A stretch of 6,159 nucleotides of DNA from Firmicutes bacterium UBA3871 (lineage in GTDB: Bacteria > Bacillota > Clostridia > Peptostreptococcales > Anaerovoracaceae). The notes below the pieces were generated by a model. The model saw nothing but the letters and a program-made list of their open reading frames with translations. It did not search any database and was not told where the DNA came from. The position numbers and the translations under genes are program-made. The stretch covers positions 1 to 6,159 of the forward strand of contig DGGP01000165.1 of NCBI GenBank assembly GCA_002392265.1, written 5' to 3'. This document shows, in pieces, positions 2,781 through 6,159 of the stretch; position 1 is the first letter of the stretch; each line of letters begins with the position of its first letter.

Positions 2781-3542
2781 ATGGATCAAAGACACATTAA
2801 AGAAATTCTGGAAAATGTAGCAAGCGGGAAGGTTAGCGCCGACGAGGCGGCAGAAGCGCTGAAAACACTGCCGTTTGATGATATAAATTTTGCAAATATC
2901 GACAATCACAGGGCACTGCGCAGCGGATATCCCGAGACGGTTTTCTGCCAGGGAAAGACCGACAAGCAGATTGCGGAAATTATGGCACGCCTCGCAGAGG
3001 GGAATGACAACCTTATCGGAACGCGGGCTTCGCGCGAAAACTACGAGGCTGTCAGAAAGCTGCTGCCGGATGCAAAGTACATCGAAGATGCGCGTCTTAT
3101 TGTTCTTCACAGAAAACCCCTCCCGAAAAACAGCAAGCCTATTGCGGTGGTTACTGCAGGGACTGCGGACATACCCGTTGCTGAGGAAGCCGCAGTGGTT
3201 GCCGAGATGCTCGGTAACAGCATCGACCGCATTTACGATGTGGGTGTTGCGGGAATTCACAGGCTGTTTGCAAAGCTGGACCGAATCCGCGCTGCAAATG
3301 TTATTATTGTCGTGGCAGGCATGGAGGGCGCGCTTGCAAGCGTGGTCGGCGGGCTTGTCGACAAGCCGGTCATCGCTGTGCCGACCAGCATCGGCTACGG
3401 CGCAAACCTTGGCGGCTTGTCCGCACTGCTTTCAATGCTGAACAGCTGTGCAAACGGTGTGGGCATTGTCAATATTGACAACGGCTTTGGCGCAGGATAT
3501 ATGGCTGCACAGATTAACAGGCTTTCGGGAAGAACGGAATAA
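2781..3542 (+). CDS. larB: LarB, pyridinium-3,5-biscarboxylic acid mononucleotide synthase
   Basis: The 253-residue protein is a full-length LarB. By family knowledge it carboxylates the pyridinium ring of nicotinic acid adenine dinucleotide and cleaves its phosphoanhydride. This releases AMP and the mononucleotide that LarE and LarC turn into the nickel-pincer cofactor of lactate racemase and related enzymes. The N-terminal part (about 1-118) has the LarB-specific helical start and the GTRAS segment (80-84). The C-terminal part (119-253) is PurE-like, with VVTAGTADIPVAEEA (123-137), GMEGALASVVGG (180-191), PTSIGYGANLGG (201-212) and LSMLNSCANGVGIVNIDNGFGAG (from 217). C223 matches the cysteine that forms a covalent adduct with the substrate in Lactobacillus plantarum LarB, and E182 matches its active-site Glu. 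The ATG is the first possible start after an in-frame TGA at 2757. GGAG at 2764-2767 lies 13 nt upstream, which is rather far. No larA, larC or larE is in the window. The gene is probably driven by the promoter at 2711-2739 and co-transcribed with the downstream gene. Confidence 0.95.
   Translation: MDQRHIKEILENVASGKVSADEAAEALKTLPFDDINFANIDNHRALRSGYPETVFCQGKTDKQIAEIMARLAEGNDNLIGTRASRENYEAVRKLLPDAKYIEDARLIVLHRKPLPKNSKPIAVVTAGTADIPVAEEAAVVAEMLGNSIDRIYDVGVAGIHRLFAKLDRIRAANVIIVVAGMEGALASVVGGLVDKPVIAVPTSIGYGANLGGLSALLSMLNSCANGVGIVNIDNGFGAGYMAAQINRLSGRTE
3352..3367. repeat. Perfect 16 bp palindrome inside larB
   Basis: GGCTTGTCGACAAGCC is its own reverse complement. It lies in the codons for the loop Gly-Leu-Val-Asp-Lys-Pro of the PurE-like domain. 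A second, 12 bp palindrome (CGCTTGCAAGCG, 3331-3342) lies just upstream. In RNA the larger one could form a 6 bp hairpin. There is no T-tract, so it is not an intrinsic terminator. It may be a by-product of the codons used here. Confidence 0.7.
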
Positions 3543-3549
3543 GATATAG

Positions 3550-6159
3550 ATGAAATATATAGATATCGGCATTCTGGCGCATGTTGACGCCGGAAAGACA
3601 ACTTTATCGGAAGCAATCCTGTTCCAAAGCGGAGCTATCCGCAAGGCGGGACGGGTAGACCACAAGGACGCGTTTCTGGACACAGATGCCATCGAGAGAG
3701 AACGAGGCATCACCGTGTTTTCAAAGGAAGCGCGTTTTGACGTATCCGGGGAAGATGGGCAGGAAATGCGCTTTACGCTCCTCGACACGCCGGGGCATTC
3801 GGATTTTTCGTGCGAAATGGAGAGAACCCTTCGCGTGCTTGACTATGCGATTCTGGTTATAAGCGGCAGCGAAGGCGTACAGAGCCACACGATGACGCTG
3901 TGGAAGCTCCTTAAAATATATAATGTGCCTGTTATCATTTTCGTAAACAAGATGGATATGGGCGATGCCGACCGCCTGCGCGTGTGGAACCAGATGAATG
4001 TTTCGTTTGGCGGCGGGCTTTTCGAAATCTCCGTGCAAGCTCAAGGCGGTGCAAGCTCAGGTGCAGCGACTGCTCCTGCCCTCCCGCAGGTCTTTCCGAA
4101 AGACTGCGAGGAGCTGGCGATGCTAAGCGAGCCTATGATGGAGGCATTTCTCGAGAAAGGCGAGGTGCCGGAAGGCTTTATTCGCGAGGCAATTGCGGAG
4201 AAAAAAGCTGTGCCCGTTGTGTATGGCTCGGCGCTTCGCATGGAGGGAACGGATGCGCTGCTTGCGGTGCTCGGAAAATATGCCACCTTCAGCAAGGTAT
4301 GCTGCAAAGACCATGACTTTTCCGCTATCGTCTACAAAATCACACGCGATAGGCAGGGCGTTCGCCAGACACATATGAAAATCATGGGTGGCGCGCTTAA
4401 AACCAAAATGCTCATCACGGGCGAAACTCCGGCGGGCGAGCAGTGGAGCGAAAAGGTCGAGCAGATCAGGCTCTACAACAGCACGGGCTTTGAAAATACT
4501 CAGGAAGCAGGGCCGGGCGAAATCGTGGCGGTTACGGGGCTAAATCTTACCTATGCGGGCGAGAGCCTGGGGGAAAGCTTGAAGTCTGCCGAAATTGCAC
4601 AAGGCGACGGGAGAGGTGTGACACCTCCGATAGGCGGGATATTGCAGCCGGCACTGACCTATCGTGTGAACATTCACGGCGAAAGGGACAATGCGAGTGC
4701 GATTAGAAAATTTGCGATTCTTGAAGAGGAAAATCCGAGCTATCATTTCGTCTGGGACGAGGAGCACGGAGAAATTCACGTGCAGGTAATGGGTGATCTC
4801 GAGCTCGAGATTCTGGCTTATCAGATTCGTGAGAGGCTGGGCCTTGAGGTGAGTTTTGACCAAGGCAGCATAATATACAAGGAGACGGTAACAGAGCCTG
4901 TAATTGGAATCGGGCACTATGAGCCGCTGCGTCACTATGCGGAGGTTCAGCTGCTGCTTGAACCACTCCCGCGCGGGAGTGGGCTTGAGTTTACGAGCCT
5001 TGTGAGCGAGGATGTCTTCGCAAAGAACTGGCAGAGGCTGGTGATGACGCACCTTTCGGAAAGACGCCACCGCGGCACGCTGACTAATTCTGAAATTACC
5101 GACATGCGTATCAGCATAGTCGCGGGCCGTGCAAGCAACAAGCACACGGAGGGCGGCGACTTCAGAAAGGCCACCTACCGTGCGATTCGTCATGCTCTGA
5201 GGCAAGCTCTCGAAAACGGCACAATGAGACTGCTCGAGCCGGAATACAGCTTTACAATCGAGGTGCCGTCGGAAAACATAGGGCGCGTTATGAGTGATAT
5301 GGAAAGGCTTGGCGCAAAGTGCGAGCTGCCGGATATGAGTGCTGATGGTGCGGTTTCAGTCCTTCGCGGCCGGGGACCGGTAGCTACGCTTCGCGATTAT
5401 CAGAGAGAGATAAACACCTTTGCACGTGGGCGCGGGCGCATAATGGCGGCGATGGAAGGATATGCCGACTGCCATAATCAGGAAGAGGTGGTGGCAGAAA
5501 TCGGATACGACCCTGATACGGATGGAAGAAATCAGGCAGGGTCCGTGTTCTGCGAGCACGGTGCGGGAGTCTATGTCGACTGGCAGGACGTGGCAAAGCT
5601 GGCTCATACTGAGGCTTGCGTGAAGCTTGTGGCTGTGGATGACGGCGAAAGCAAGGCAGTTTTGGAAAGCGCGGGCGGGCCGGGAAAATCGTCGCTCAGT
5701 GCGGACACGGGCCGCGGAATCGGCGGGTCCGGTGCTGCGGAAAAGGAGCTTGATGCAATCTTTGAAAAGACATATGGAAAGAGCAAGCGCGATGAACAGC
5801 TGCTGCGCGCAAGGCAGTCGGAGGCCAGCCGCAGGAGTCACTTAAAATCCGGCGAAATCGAAAACTTCCCGCAGCCGAAGTGGAAGAAGGATGACGGCGG
5901 CGGTGAGCGGGAAAGGCACATGTTTATCGATGGCTACAATGTCATATTTGCATGGCAGGAATTAAAGGCGCTGGCGGATGTGAATATTGATTCCGCGCGC
6001 GATGCGCTTTTGGATATTCTGGGTAATTATCAGGGGTATACAAAGCAGAATATTACGATCGTGTTTGACGGCTACCGTGTGGCAGGCAGTCCCGGAAGTA
6101 CCGAAAAGGTTTCGGGGCTTGACGTTGTTTACACGCGGGAAGGAGAAAAGGCAGACAGC
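3550..6159 (+). CDS. TetM/EF-G-like ribosomal GTPase fused to a YacP/Rae1-like NYN nuclease (3' partial)
   Basis: The frame stays open for 870 codons to the window end. The start MKYIDIGILAHVDAGKT matches the TetM family start, so ATG 3550 is sound. It lies 7 bp after the larB stop with only a weak GGA (3536-3538) as ribosome site, suggesting translational coupling. GTPase motifs: AHVDAGKT (10-17), RGIT (52-55), DTPGH (79-83), NKMD (133-136), GSAL (226-229). Domain II is about 256-345, III 366-440, IV 447-560 and V 565-640, so all EF-G-like domains are present. A Cys/His-bearing extension (C641, H642, C668, H670) and a Gly-rich then basic linker (about 690-790) follow. From 791 an NYN/PIN-like domain begins: FIDGYNVIFAW (D794, N797), ARDAL (816-820), IVFDGYR (D840) and EKADS (D869), closely resembling B. 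subtilis YacP/Rae1, a ribosome-dependent endoribonuclease. About half of that domain is missing. The domain IV tip (526-538) lacks TetM's SPVST loop, so tetracycline protection should not be assumed. Predicted role (inference): ribosome A-site binding coupled to mRNA cleavage. Confidence 0.92.
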   Translation, partial: MKYIDIGILAHVDAGKTTLSEAILFQSGAIRKAGRVDHKDAFLDTDAIERERGITVFSKEARFDVSGEDGQEMRFTLLDTPGHSDFSCEMERTLRVLDYAILVISGSEGVQSHTMTLWKLLKIYNVPVIIFVNKMDMGDADRLRVWNQMNVSFGGGLFEISVQAQGGASSGAATAPALPQVFPKDCEELAMLSEPMMEAFLEKGEVPEGFIREAIAEKKAVPVVYGSALRMEGTDALLAVLGKYATFSKVCCKDHDFSAIVYKITRDRQGVRQTHMKIMGGALKTKMLITGETPAGEQWSEKVEQIRLYNSTGFENTQEAGPGEIVAVTGLNLTYAGESLGESLKSAEIAQGDGRGVTPPIGGILQPALTYRVNIHGERDNASAIRKFAILEEENPSYHFVWDEEHGEIHVQVMGDLELEILAYQIRERLGLEVSFDQGSIIYKETVTEPVIGIGHYEPLRHYAEVQLLLEPLPRGSGLEFTSLVSEDVFAKNWQRLVMTHLSERRHRGTLTNSEITDMRISIVAGRASNKHTEGGDFRKATYRAIRHALRQALENGTMRLLEPEYSFTIEVPSENIGRVMSDMERLGAKCELPDMSADGAVSVLRGRGPVATLRDYQREINTFARGRGRIMAAMEGYADCHNQEEVVAEIGYDPDTDGRNQAGSVFCEHGAGVYVDWQDVAKLAHTEACVKLVAVDDGESKAVLESAGGPGKSSLSADTGRGIGGSGAAEKELDAIFEKTYGKSKRDEQLLRARQSEASRRSHLKSGEIENFPQPKWKKDDGGGERERHMFIDGYNVIFAWQELKALADVNIDSARDALLDILGNYQGYTKQNITIVFDGYRVAGSPGSTEKVSGLDVVYTREGEKADS
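4033..4108 (+). repeat. Low-complexity insertion with direct repeat and hairpin in the GTPase domain
   Basis: GTGCAAGCTCA occurs at 4033-4043 and 4049-4059 (16 bp period), and GGTGCAGC follows. The segment encodes the Ala/Ser/Gly/Gln-rich run VQAQGGASSGAATAPALPQ (codons 162-180), between the NKMD and GSAL motifs. An imperfect hairpin follows at once: CGCAG (4085-4089), bulged G, TCTTT (4091-4095), loop CCG, AAAGA, CTGCG (4099-4108). The frame is kept, so the segment is translated. It is probably a flexible surface loop that has expanded. Confidence 0.6.
4796..4811. repeat. Perfect 16 bp palindrome in domain III coding sequence
   Basis: ATCTCGAGCTCGAGAT is fully self-complementary. It encodes the run Asp-Leu-Glu-Leu-Glu-Ile of the GTPase. 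The alternating CTC/GAG codons for Leu-Glu-Leu-Glu account for much of the symmetry, so a codon-choice origin is plausible. No T-tract follows. Confidence 0.7.
4963..4982. repeat. Perfect 20 bp palindrome in domain IV coding sequence
   Basis: CCACTCCCGC is followed directly by its reverse complement GCGGGAGTGG. In RNA it would give an 8 bp GC-rich stem with a CGCG loop. It lies in codons for Pro-Leu-Pro-Arg-Gly-Ser-Gly, at the place where TetM has a similar PLPLGSG turn, so it is inside a conserved protein segment and not an insertion. No T-tract follows, which argues against an intrinsic terminator. Confidence 0.75.

Follow-up and report, generated by a model that had tools for sequence, protein, structure and literature searches.

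A translational GTPase fused to a Rae1-type NYN nuclease domain alternates with stand-alone Rae1 among Clostridia genomes

The 6,159-nucleotide contig DGGP01000165.1 of Firmicutes bacterium UBA3871 (contig 96 of an assembly that is 70% complete; the whole stretch is referred to here as the window) ends in a gene that joins a translational GTPase to a nuclease. The gene lies on the forward strand at positions 3550–6159, as a single open reading frame (ORF) of 870 codons without interruption, and runs off the end of the contig. By Pfam, the encoded protein begins with domain I, the GTPase domain (GTP_EFTU, residues 3–244, positions 3556–4281), in which all G motifs are in place: AHVDAGKTT (3577–3603), RGIT (3703–3714), DTPGH (3784–3798), NKMD (3946–3957), and GSAL (4225–4236). 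EF-G domains II (EF-G_D2, residues 257–341, positions 4318–4572), III (EFG_III, 366–436, 4645–4857), IV (EFG_IV, 440–553, 4867–5208), and V (EFG_C, 560–644, 5227–5481) follow. A conserved tail (5470–5562) and a linker that includes predicted helices (residues ~690–790, positions 5617–5919) lead to the first 80 residues of an NYN_YacP/Rae1-type nuclease domain (residues 791–870, positions 5920–6159). The original prediction, made from the letters of the window, had described this order of one uninterrupted frame, five GTPase motifs, domains I–V, and an NYN domain, and both the Pfam matches and the motif positions bear it out.

The sequence past position 6159 had been set in advance as a test. 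A database protein (P0001), identical to the window at 870/870 residues, continues to 943 amino acids without a stop or frameshift and contains the complete NYN domain; the window holds the first 870 of 943 codons, and the 3′ end lies past the contig end. In the precomputed Pfam annotation, PF05991 is present in 120/120 listed homologues (the best 120 of 7998 scored), which excludes a chance origin of the fusion. The gene is an EF-G/TetM-type GTPase with a C-terminal Rae1-type NYN nuclease domain. This architecture has been known since 2015: the accessible text of Atkinson 2015 (PMC4342817) describes, from ten species of Clostridiales, Tet-family GTPases that carry a YacP-like NYN domain. The evidence on its role from the alternation with Rae1 reported here is new, and no functional study of the fusion was found in the literature searched, outside of which lay most subscription papers and the primary 2017/2018 Rae1 papers.

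Despite truncation at the contig end, the nuclease domain matches NYN_YacP (PF05991) with 91.4 bits (cut-off 24.6) over profile positions 1–81 of 166. Residues D794 (5929–5931), N797 (5938–5940), D840 (6067–6069), and D869 (6154–6156), which we take, following the original prediction, to be the catalytic set, align with Asp/Asn residues of the YacP/Rae1 chains 5MQ8 and 5MQ9 (E 1.3e-21), in the arrangement that had been read from the letters. Loss of these residues across homologues was the second test set in advance, and no general loss is seen. All four are kept in 195 of 197 aligned fused proteins, a set made up of 77 of the 80 named loci and 120 homologues from the database, many of the latter nearly identical to one another, while P0021 and P0025 differ at one residue each; in a thinned set of 30 proteins below 85% identity, 29 keep all four. 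A fold search with the whole predicted model gave, among the matches listed, only translation factors and a spliceosomal relative (rank 47), and the NYN fold is consequently judged by sequence. Rae1/YacP of Bacillus subtilis (5MQ8, 5MQ9) shares the NYN_YacP domain and the aligned D/N/D/D residues but is short (181 residues in the PDB chains) and has no GTPase, whereas in the fusion the domain sits behind a GTPase of ~690 amino acids. Rae1 is described, in the accessible parts of the literature (PMC6613710, PMC10100781, PMC12320835), as an endonuclease that acts on messenger RNA (mRNA) at the A site of the ribosome; entry into stalled ribosomes has been proposed for it.

The GTPase part has the EF-G-like domains I–V of the tetracycline ribosomal protection proteins, in an order identical to that of TetM and TetO (PDB 3J9Y, 4V6V; profile E ~1e-101 to 1e-103), but differs from these in the tip of domain IV, in an extended C-terminal tail, and in the nuclease domain, and scores far under the TetM cut-offs. 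Among the best 25 of 36 matching NCBIfam families, the top match is the general tet_protect family, at 365.5 bits against a cut-off of 775; the cut-offs are likewise missed for TetM/W (223.8 of 1100), TetM (182.4 of 1420), TetQ (225.4 of 1425), Otr(A) (260.9 of 900), and the EF-G family TIGR00484 (252.8 of 659.4). Against tet_protect, four further proteins of the family (L125, P0121, L115, and P0050) reach 384–442 bits and L131, a protein without the tip motif described below, reaches 606 bits, all below the cut-off. Identity to the three listed Tet(W)/Tet(M) records is 27–28%. In a profile alignment, the domain IV tip reads KHTEGGDFR in the fusion family (residues 531–539, positions 5140–5166) and PVSTPADFR in TetM and TetO. 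The exact motif KHTEGGDFR is found in 116/120 homologues and in 76/78 fused ORFs (window counted in), and Lys531, kept in 196/197 fused homologues, occupies the position of TetM Pro509, presumably a drug contact. The region around Pro509 that characterizes TetM and TetO is thus replaced. According to the accessible text of Atkinson 2015 (PMC4342817), Tet proteins dislodge tetracycline with the loops at their domain IV tip.

The same source suggests that the fused proteins protect the ribosome against tetracycline or another antibiotic, the NYN domain adding RNase activity, perhaps on ribosomal RNA (rRNA). The top rank of tet_protect is consistent with such a role, as is the Agathobacter rectalis copy, which is labelled as TetM/TetW/TetO/TetS family; the Monoglobus copy carries the label "translation factor GTPase family protein", and such generic labels had been anticipated. 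The scores, the replaced tip, and the low identity argue against it. On these comparisons, the GTPase is built on the EF-G plan yet fails the tests of a TetM-type protein, a result with which some other drug-related role would be compatible.

We surveyed the distribution of the nuclease domain in 243 genomes of the window's class, at least 90% complete except the window's own. PF05991 exceeds the Pfam cut-off in 161 of these, with exactly one NYN_YacP in each. At the 150 listed NYN places, the frame is at least 800 amino acids long in 77 cases, at most 220 in 66, and intermediate in seven. The GTPase query matches all 77 long-frame genomes, and a separate GTPase is found in 11 of the 66 short-frame genomes. 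Six of the seven intermediate genomes match the GTPase and were counted as whole or broken fusions, with one (G185) left open; among the 11 genomes without a listed place, five with a GTPase match in a long frame were counted as fused and six without as stand-alone. The tally, in which these last assignments are indirect, is 88 fused, 72 stand-alone, and one open. The fusion and a separate Rae1 gene were not found together in any of the 243 genomes. Three genomes, all of a single genus, at first seemed to have two NYN domains, but this was rejected, the second match being partial and, at 21.3–21.5 bits, under the cut-off of 24.6. The fused form is found in 22 of the 47 NYN-bearing families, four of which (f21, f22, f26, and f27) are mixed; in one f26 genus, four sampled genomes harbor the fusion and a fifth the stand-alone gene. 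Three loci depart from the usual form. The fusion copy L134 (genome G190) has an in-frame stop within the GTPase part, and in L166 (G235) and L167 (G044) the GTPase and the NYN domain are encoded in adjoining separate open frames.

A second sample of 299 genomes of the phylum, at least 11 of them common to the class sample, contains 163 genomes with a PF05991 match (161 over the cut-off) and 12 genomes outside the class with the fusion; one genome (G441) has two NYN copies, both stand-alone. In each of the best 80 of 590 named loci the match extends at least to residue 908, so that all contain the NYN part. Their titles name Clostridia groups, except for L057, whose title, Thermoflexaceae, is that of a Chloroflexota family and is either a mislabel or a sign of wider spread.

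With one NYN_YacP per genome, either fused or stand-alone, the fused gene looks like its host's Rae1 rather than an added resistance gene, and these genome comparisons suggest that the fusion likely replaces Rae1 in its host. Such a swap is not the pattern of an accessory gene. Nor does the neighbourhood favor a resistance function: when ORFs were clustered over 80 named fused loci and the window (81 regions), the fusion's own cluster was recovered in 78 (the other three were lost to ORF pruning), and no other cluster occurred in more than 7/81 regions, neighbours not being annotated for resistance or mobility. With no recurrent neighbour, there is also no operon partner to explain the fusion. 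Antibiotic protection is consequently quite improbable in our judgment, and the antibiotic response that the original prediction had listed among its options is weakened, while what it said of the domains, the residues, and the labels holds; its overall interpretation is supported in part. The fusions of Atkinson 2015 (PMC4342817) likewise combine a Tet-family translational GTPase with a YacP-like NYN domain, the ten published sequences not having been compared directly. In the accessible text, however, these are resistance proteins that gained an RNase, whereas here the fusion alternates one per genome with stand-alone Rae1, has a non-TetM tip, and occurs in some families outside the class.

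The GTPase has unfused relatives, namely KHTxGGDFR-type proteins in Clostridia and related proteins in Lactobacillaceae, which share domains I–V and a tail with SVFC.(H/K)G but end at ~640–700 amino acids and have no NYN domain; in the Lactobacillaceae the tip K is mostly replaced by V. In a GTPase tree of hand-chosen rows (26 fused, 16 unfused Clostridia, 7 Lactobacillaceae, and 3 others), fused and Lactobacillaceae sequences form a clade with 99/100 support, outside of which lie the unfused Clostridia genes. A strict clade of fused GTPases was found in 0/200 bootstrap trees, but an approximately unbiased (AU) test does not reject it (p 0.28). PF05991 is absent from all 120 listed relatives of the L. 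salivarius GTPase, some of which are fragments, and those with a readable source name are all Lactobacillaceae. The position of the Lactobacillaceae inside the fused clade suggests that the nuclease was lost there, although the AU result leaves a fused-only clade unrejected.

A midpoint-rooted tree of NYN domains (29 fused, 28 stand-alone, and 2 split copies) places 27 of the 28 stand-alone domains on one side of a branch with 95/93 support. The exception is an intact 173-residue stand-alone gene of G209 in family f27 (L179:2287-2808), which groups with fused NYN domains; this genome also has an unfused GTPase. The fused rows are again not a single clade in this tree, although such a clade is not rejected by the AU test (p 0.19). 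A clade with 100/98 support unites fused genes of f21, f22, and f26 with those from other families, and one pair (96/91) links f26 with f118, a family outside the class in which four other genomes have the stand-alone form. The sampled fused GTPases form one clade together with the Lactobacillaceae copies, spanning families and crossing classes. The simplest reading of the trees is that the fusion, perhaps of single origin, spread and displaced Rae1.

These results also bear on whether the fusion is one of convenience, in which two independent activities are co-expressed, with the usual action of Rae1 on one side and a separate task of the GTPase, such as freeing stalled ribosomes, on the other. 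Many genomes contain just one of the two parts, and the 120 listed relatives of the L. salivarius GTPase do without the NYN domain. On the other hand, occurrence in so many families within and outside the class, together with the single clade of the 26 sampled fused GTPases and the Lactobacillaceae copies, indicates that the fusion has been long kept, and we think a mere convenience rather unlikely.

The tail after domain V contains CHN (residues 641–643) and SVFCEHG (665–671). Cys641 is kept in 330/330 and Cys668 in 328/330 aligned fused and unfused relatives, often with His642 and His670 beside them, although His670 is Lys in 11/16 unfused Clostridia copies; a metal site at Cys641/Cys668 would be a guess. 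The spacing from the conserved motif of this tail to the DGYN of the nuclease is 98–141 residues (median 117) in the 114/120 homologues with both patterns, and residues ~709–785 of the AlphaFold model mostly fall below 50 in the predicted local distance difference test (pLDDT; 79 overall). Within the linker, residues 742, 743, 746, and 747 of TYGKSKRDE (5770–5796) are kept in 120/120 database homologues and are variable in 77 named loci. A linker of this length would permit the nuclease to reach other sites, and it is possible that the GTPase merely tethers an enzyme that cuts rRNA, transfer RNA (tRNA), or mRNA outside of the A site and so serves the maturation or turnover of ribosomes. According to the accessible text of PMC4342817, a part in rRNA and tRNA maturation has been proposed for the NYN domain. 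However, the domain matches Rae1, whose described action is on A-site mRNA, and we consider the tether-only explanation unlikely.

Factors built on the TetM plan reach the A site with domain IV. We propose that the fusion stands in for Rae1, its GTPase binding ribosomes with an empty A site and its tethered nuclease predicted to cut the mRNA there, a reading that we hold to be about as apt to be right as wrong. The GTPase, with guanosine triphosphate (GTP) bound, would presumably prefer ribosomes with a vacant or stalled A site; GTP hydrolysis would withdraw domain IV, whereupon the NYN domain could enter and cut, and the cut mRNA would be passed to decay and ribosome rescue. This sequential order is proposed because domain IV and the NYN domain both aim at the A site and could hardly be there simultaneously. 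The GTPase would in effect be the loading step of Rae1-type cleavage within the same chain. The inference of the original prediction, in which the GTPase controls how the nuclease is brought to the A site, gains support from the strict swap with stand-alone Rae1. A broader and more tentative possibility is that Rae1-type A-site cleavage is itself GTPase-driven. In many Clostridia the only Rae1 of the cell would then be joined to an EF-G-like factor that samples empty A sites, with hydrolysis swapping domain IV for the nuclease, so that a single protein would sense the stalled ribosome as well as cut its mRNA; where the parts are separate, the unfused KHTxGGDFR GTPase would serve Rae1 in trans.

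Several points weigh against the proposed stand-in role. The single site may be contested between domain IV and the NYN domain, and the model, with a predicted template modelling score (pTM) of 0.60, does not fix the NYN placement. An unfused GTPase (E<=1e-80) is present in 11/72 stand-alone class genomes, so Rae1 usually occurs without one, and 6/82 NYN-free genomes have the GTPase without any NYN; the two are not obligate partners. In addition, the swap shows clustering within families, so that genomes are not independent, and given the incompleteness of the window's assembly, the lack of a stand-alone gene there carries little weight by itself. The literature searched yielded no data on activity, ribosome binding, or structure for any of the fused proteins.

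If the proposed role is correct, at least some chromosomal "tetracycline resistance" genes would encode ordinary factors of mRNA decay or ribosome rescue, a point of consequence for the counting of resistance genes in gut metagenomes. The accessible literature apparently leaves unsettled how Rae1 locates paused ribosomes. The fusion, which seems to have displaced Rae1 in many families of Clostridia, offers a testable answer in its own architecture, since the joined partner is the kind of GTPase that enters the A site.

An expected pairing of unfused GTPase and stand-alone Rae1 proved weak in the class sample (11/72 versus 6/82 NYN-free genomes, Fisher p 0.13). In the phylum sample, stand-alone NYN is found in 4/4 unfused-GTPase genomes, the type of these four GTPases being unchecked. 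Three of 19 unfused class ORFs (L116, L131, and L133) lack the KHTxGGDFR tip and represent another type; with these left out, 10 of 15 unfused-GTPase genomes have a stand-alone NYN and five have none.

A resistance gene or mobile element was rejected as the principal explanation of the locus. Only 2/1298 matching plasmid records cover at least 80% of the protein, both of them large replicons typed as non-mobilizable, and an unfused relative is found on a mobilizable L. salivarius megaplasmid. Among phage matches, 2/113 reach the same coverage; these two unannotated "Bacteriophage sp." faecal contigs (MT835563.1 and MT835514.1) contain near full-length fusions and are perhaps bacterial DNA.

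Upstream of the fusion gene, and ending 7 bases before it, is a gene for LarB (nickel pincer cofactor; 2781–3542), which recurs in one other of the 81 regions, there ~7 kb downstream of the fusion. Positions 38–2690 encode an ArsR-type regulator and, after it, a heavy-metal P-type ATPase whose N-terminus is His-rich; the two look like an ordinary metal-export pair.
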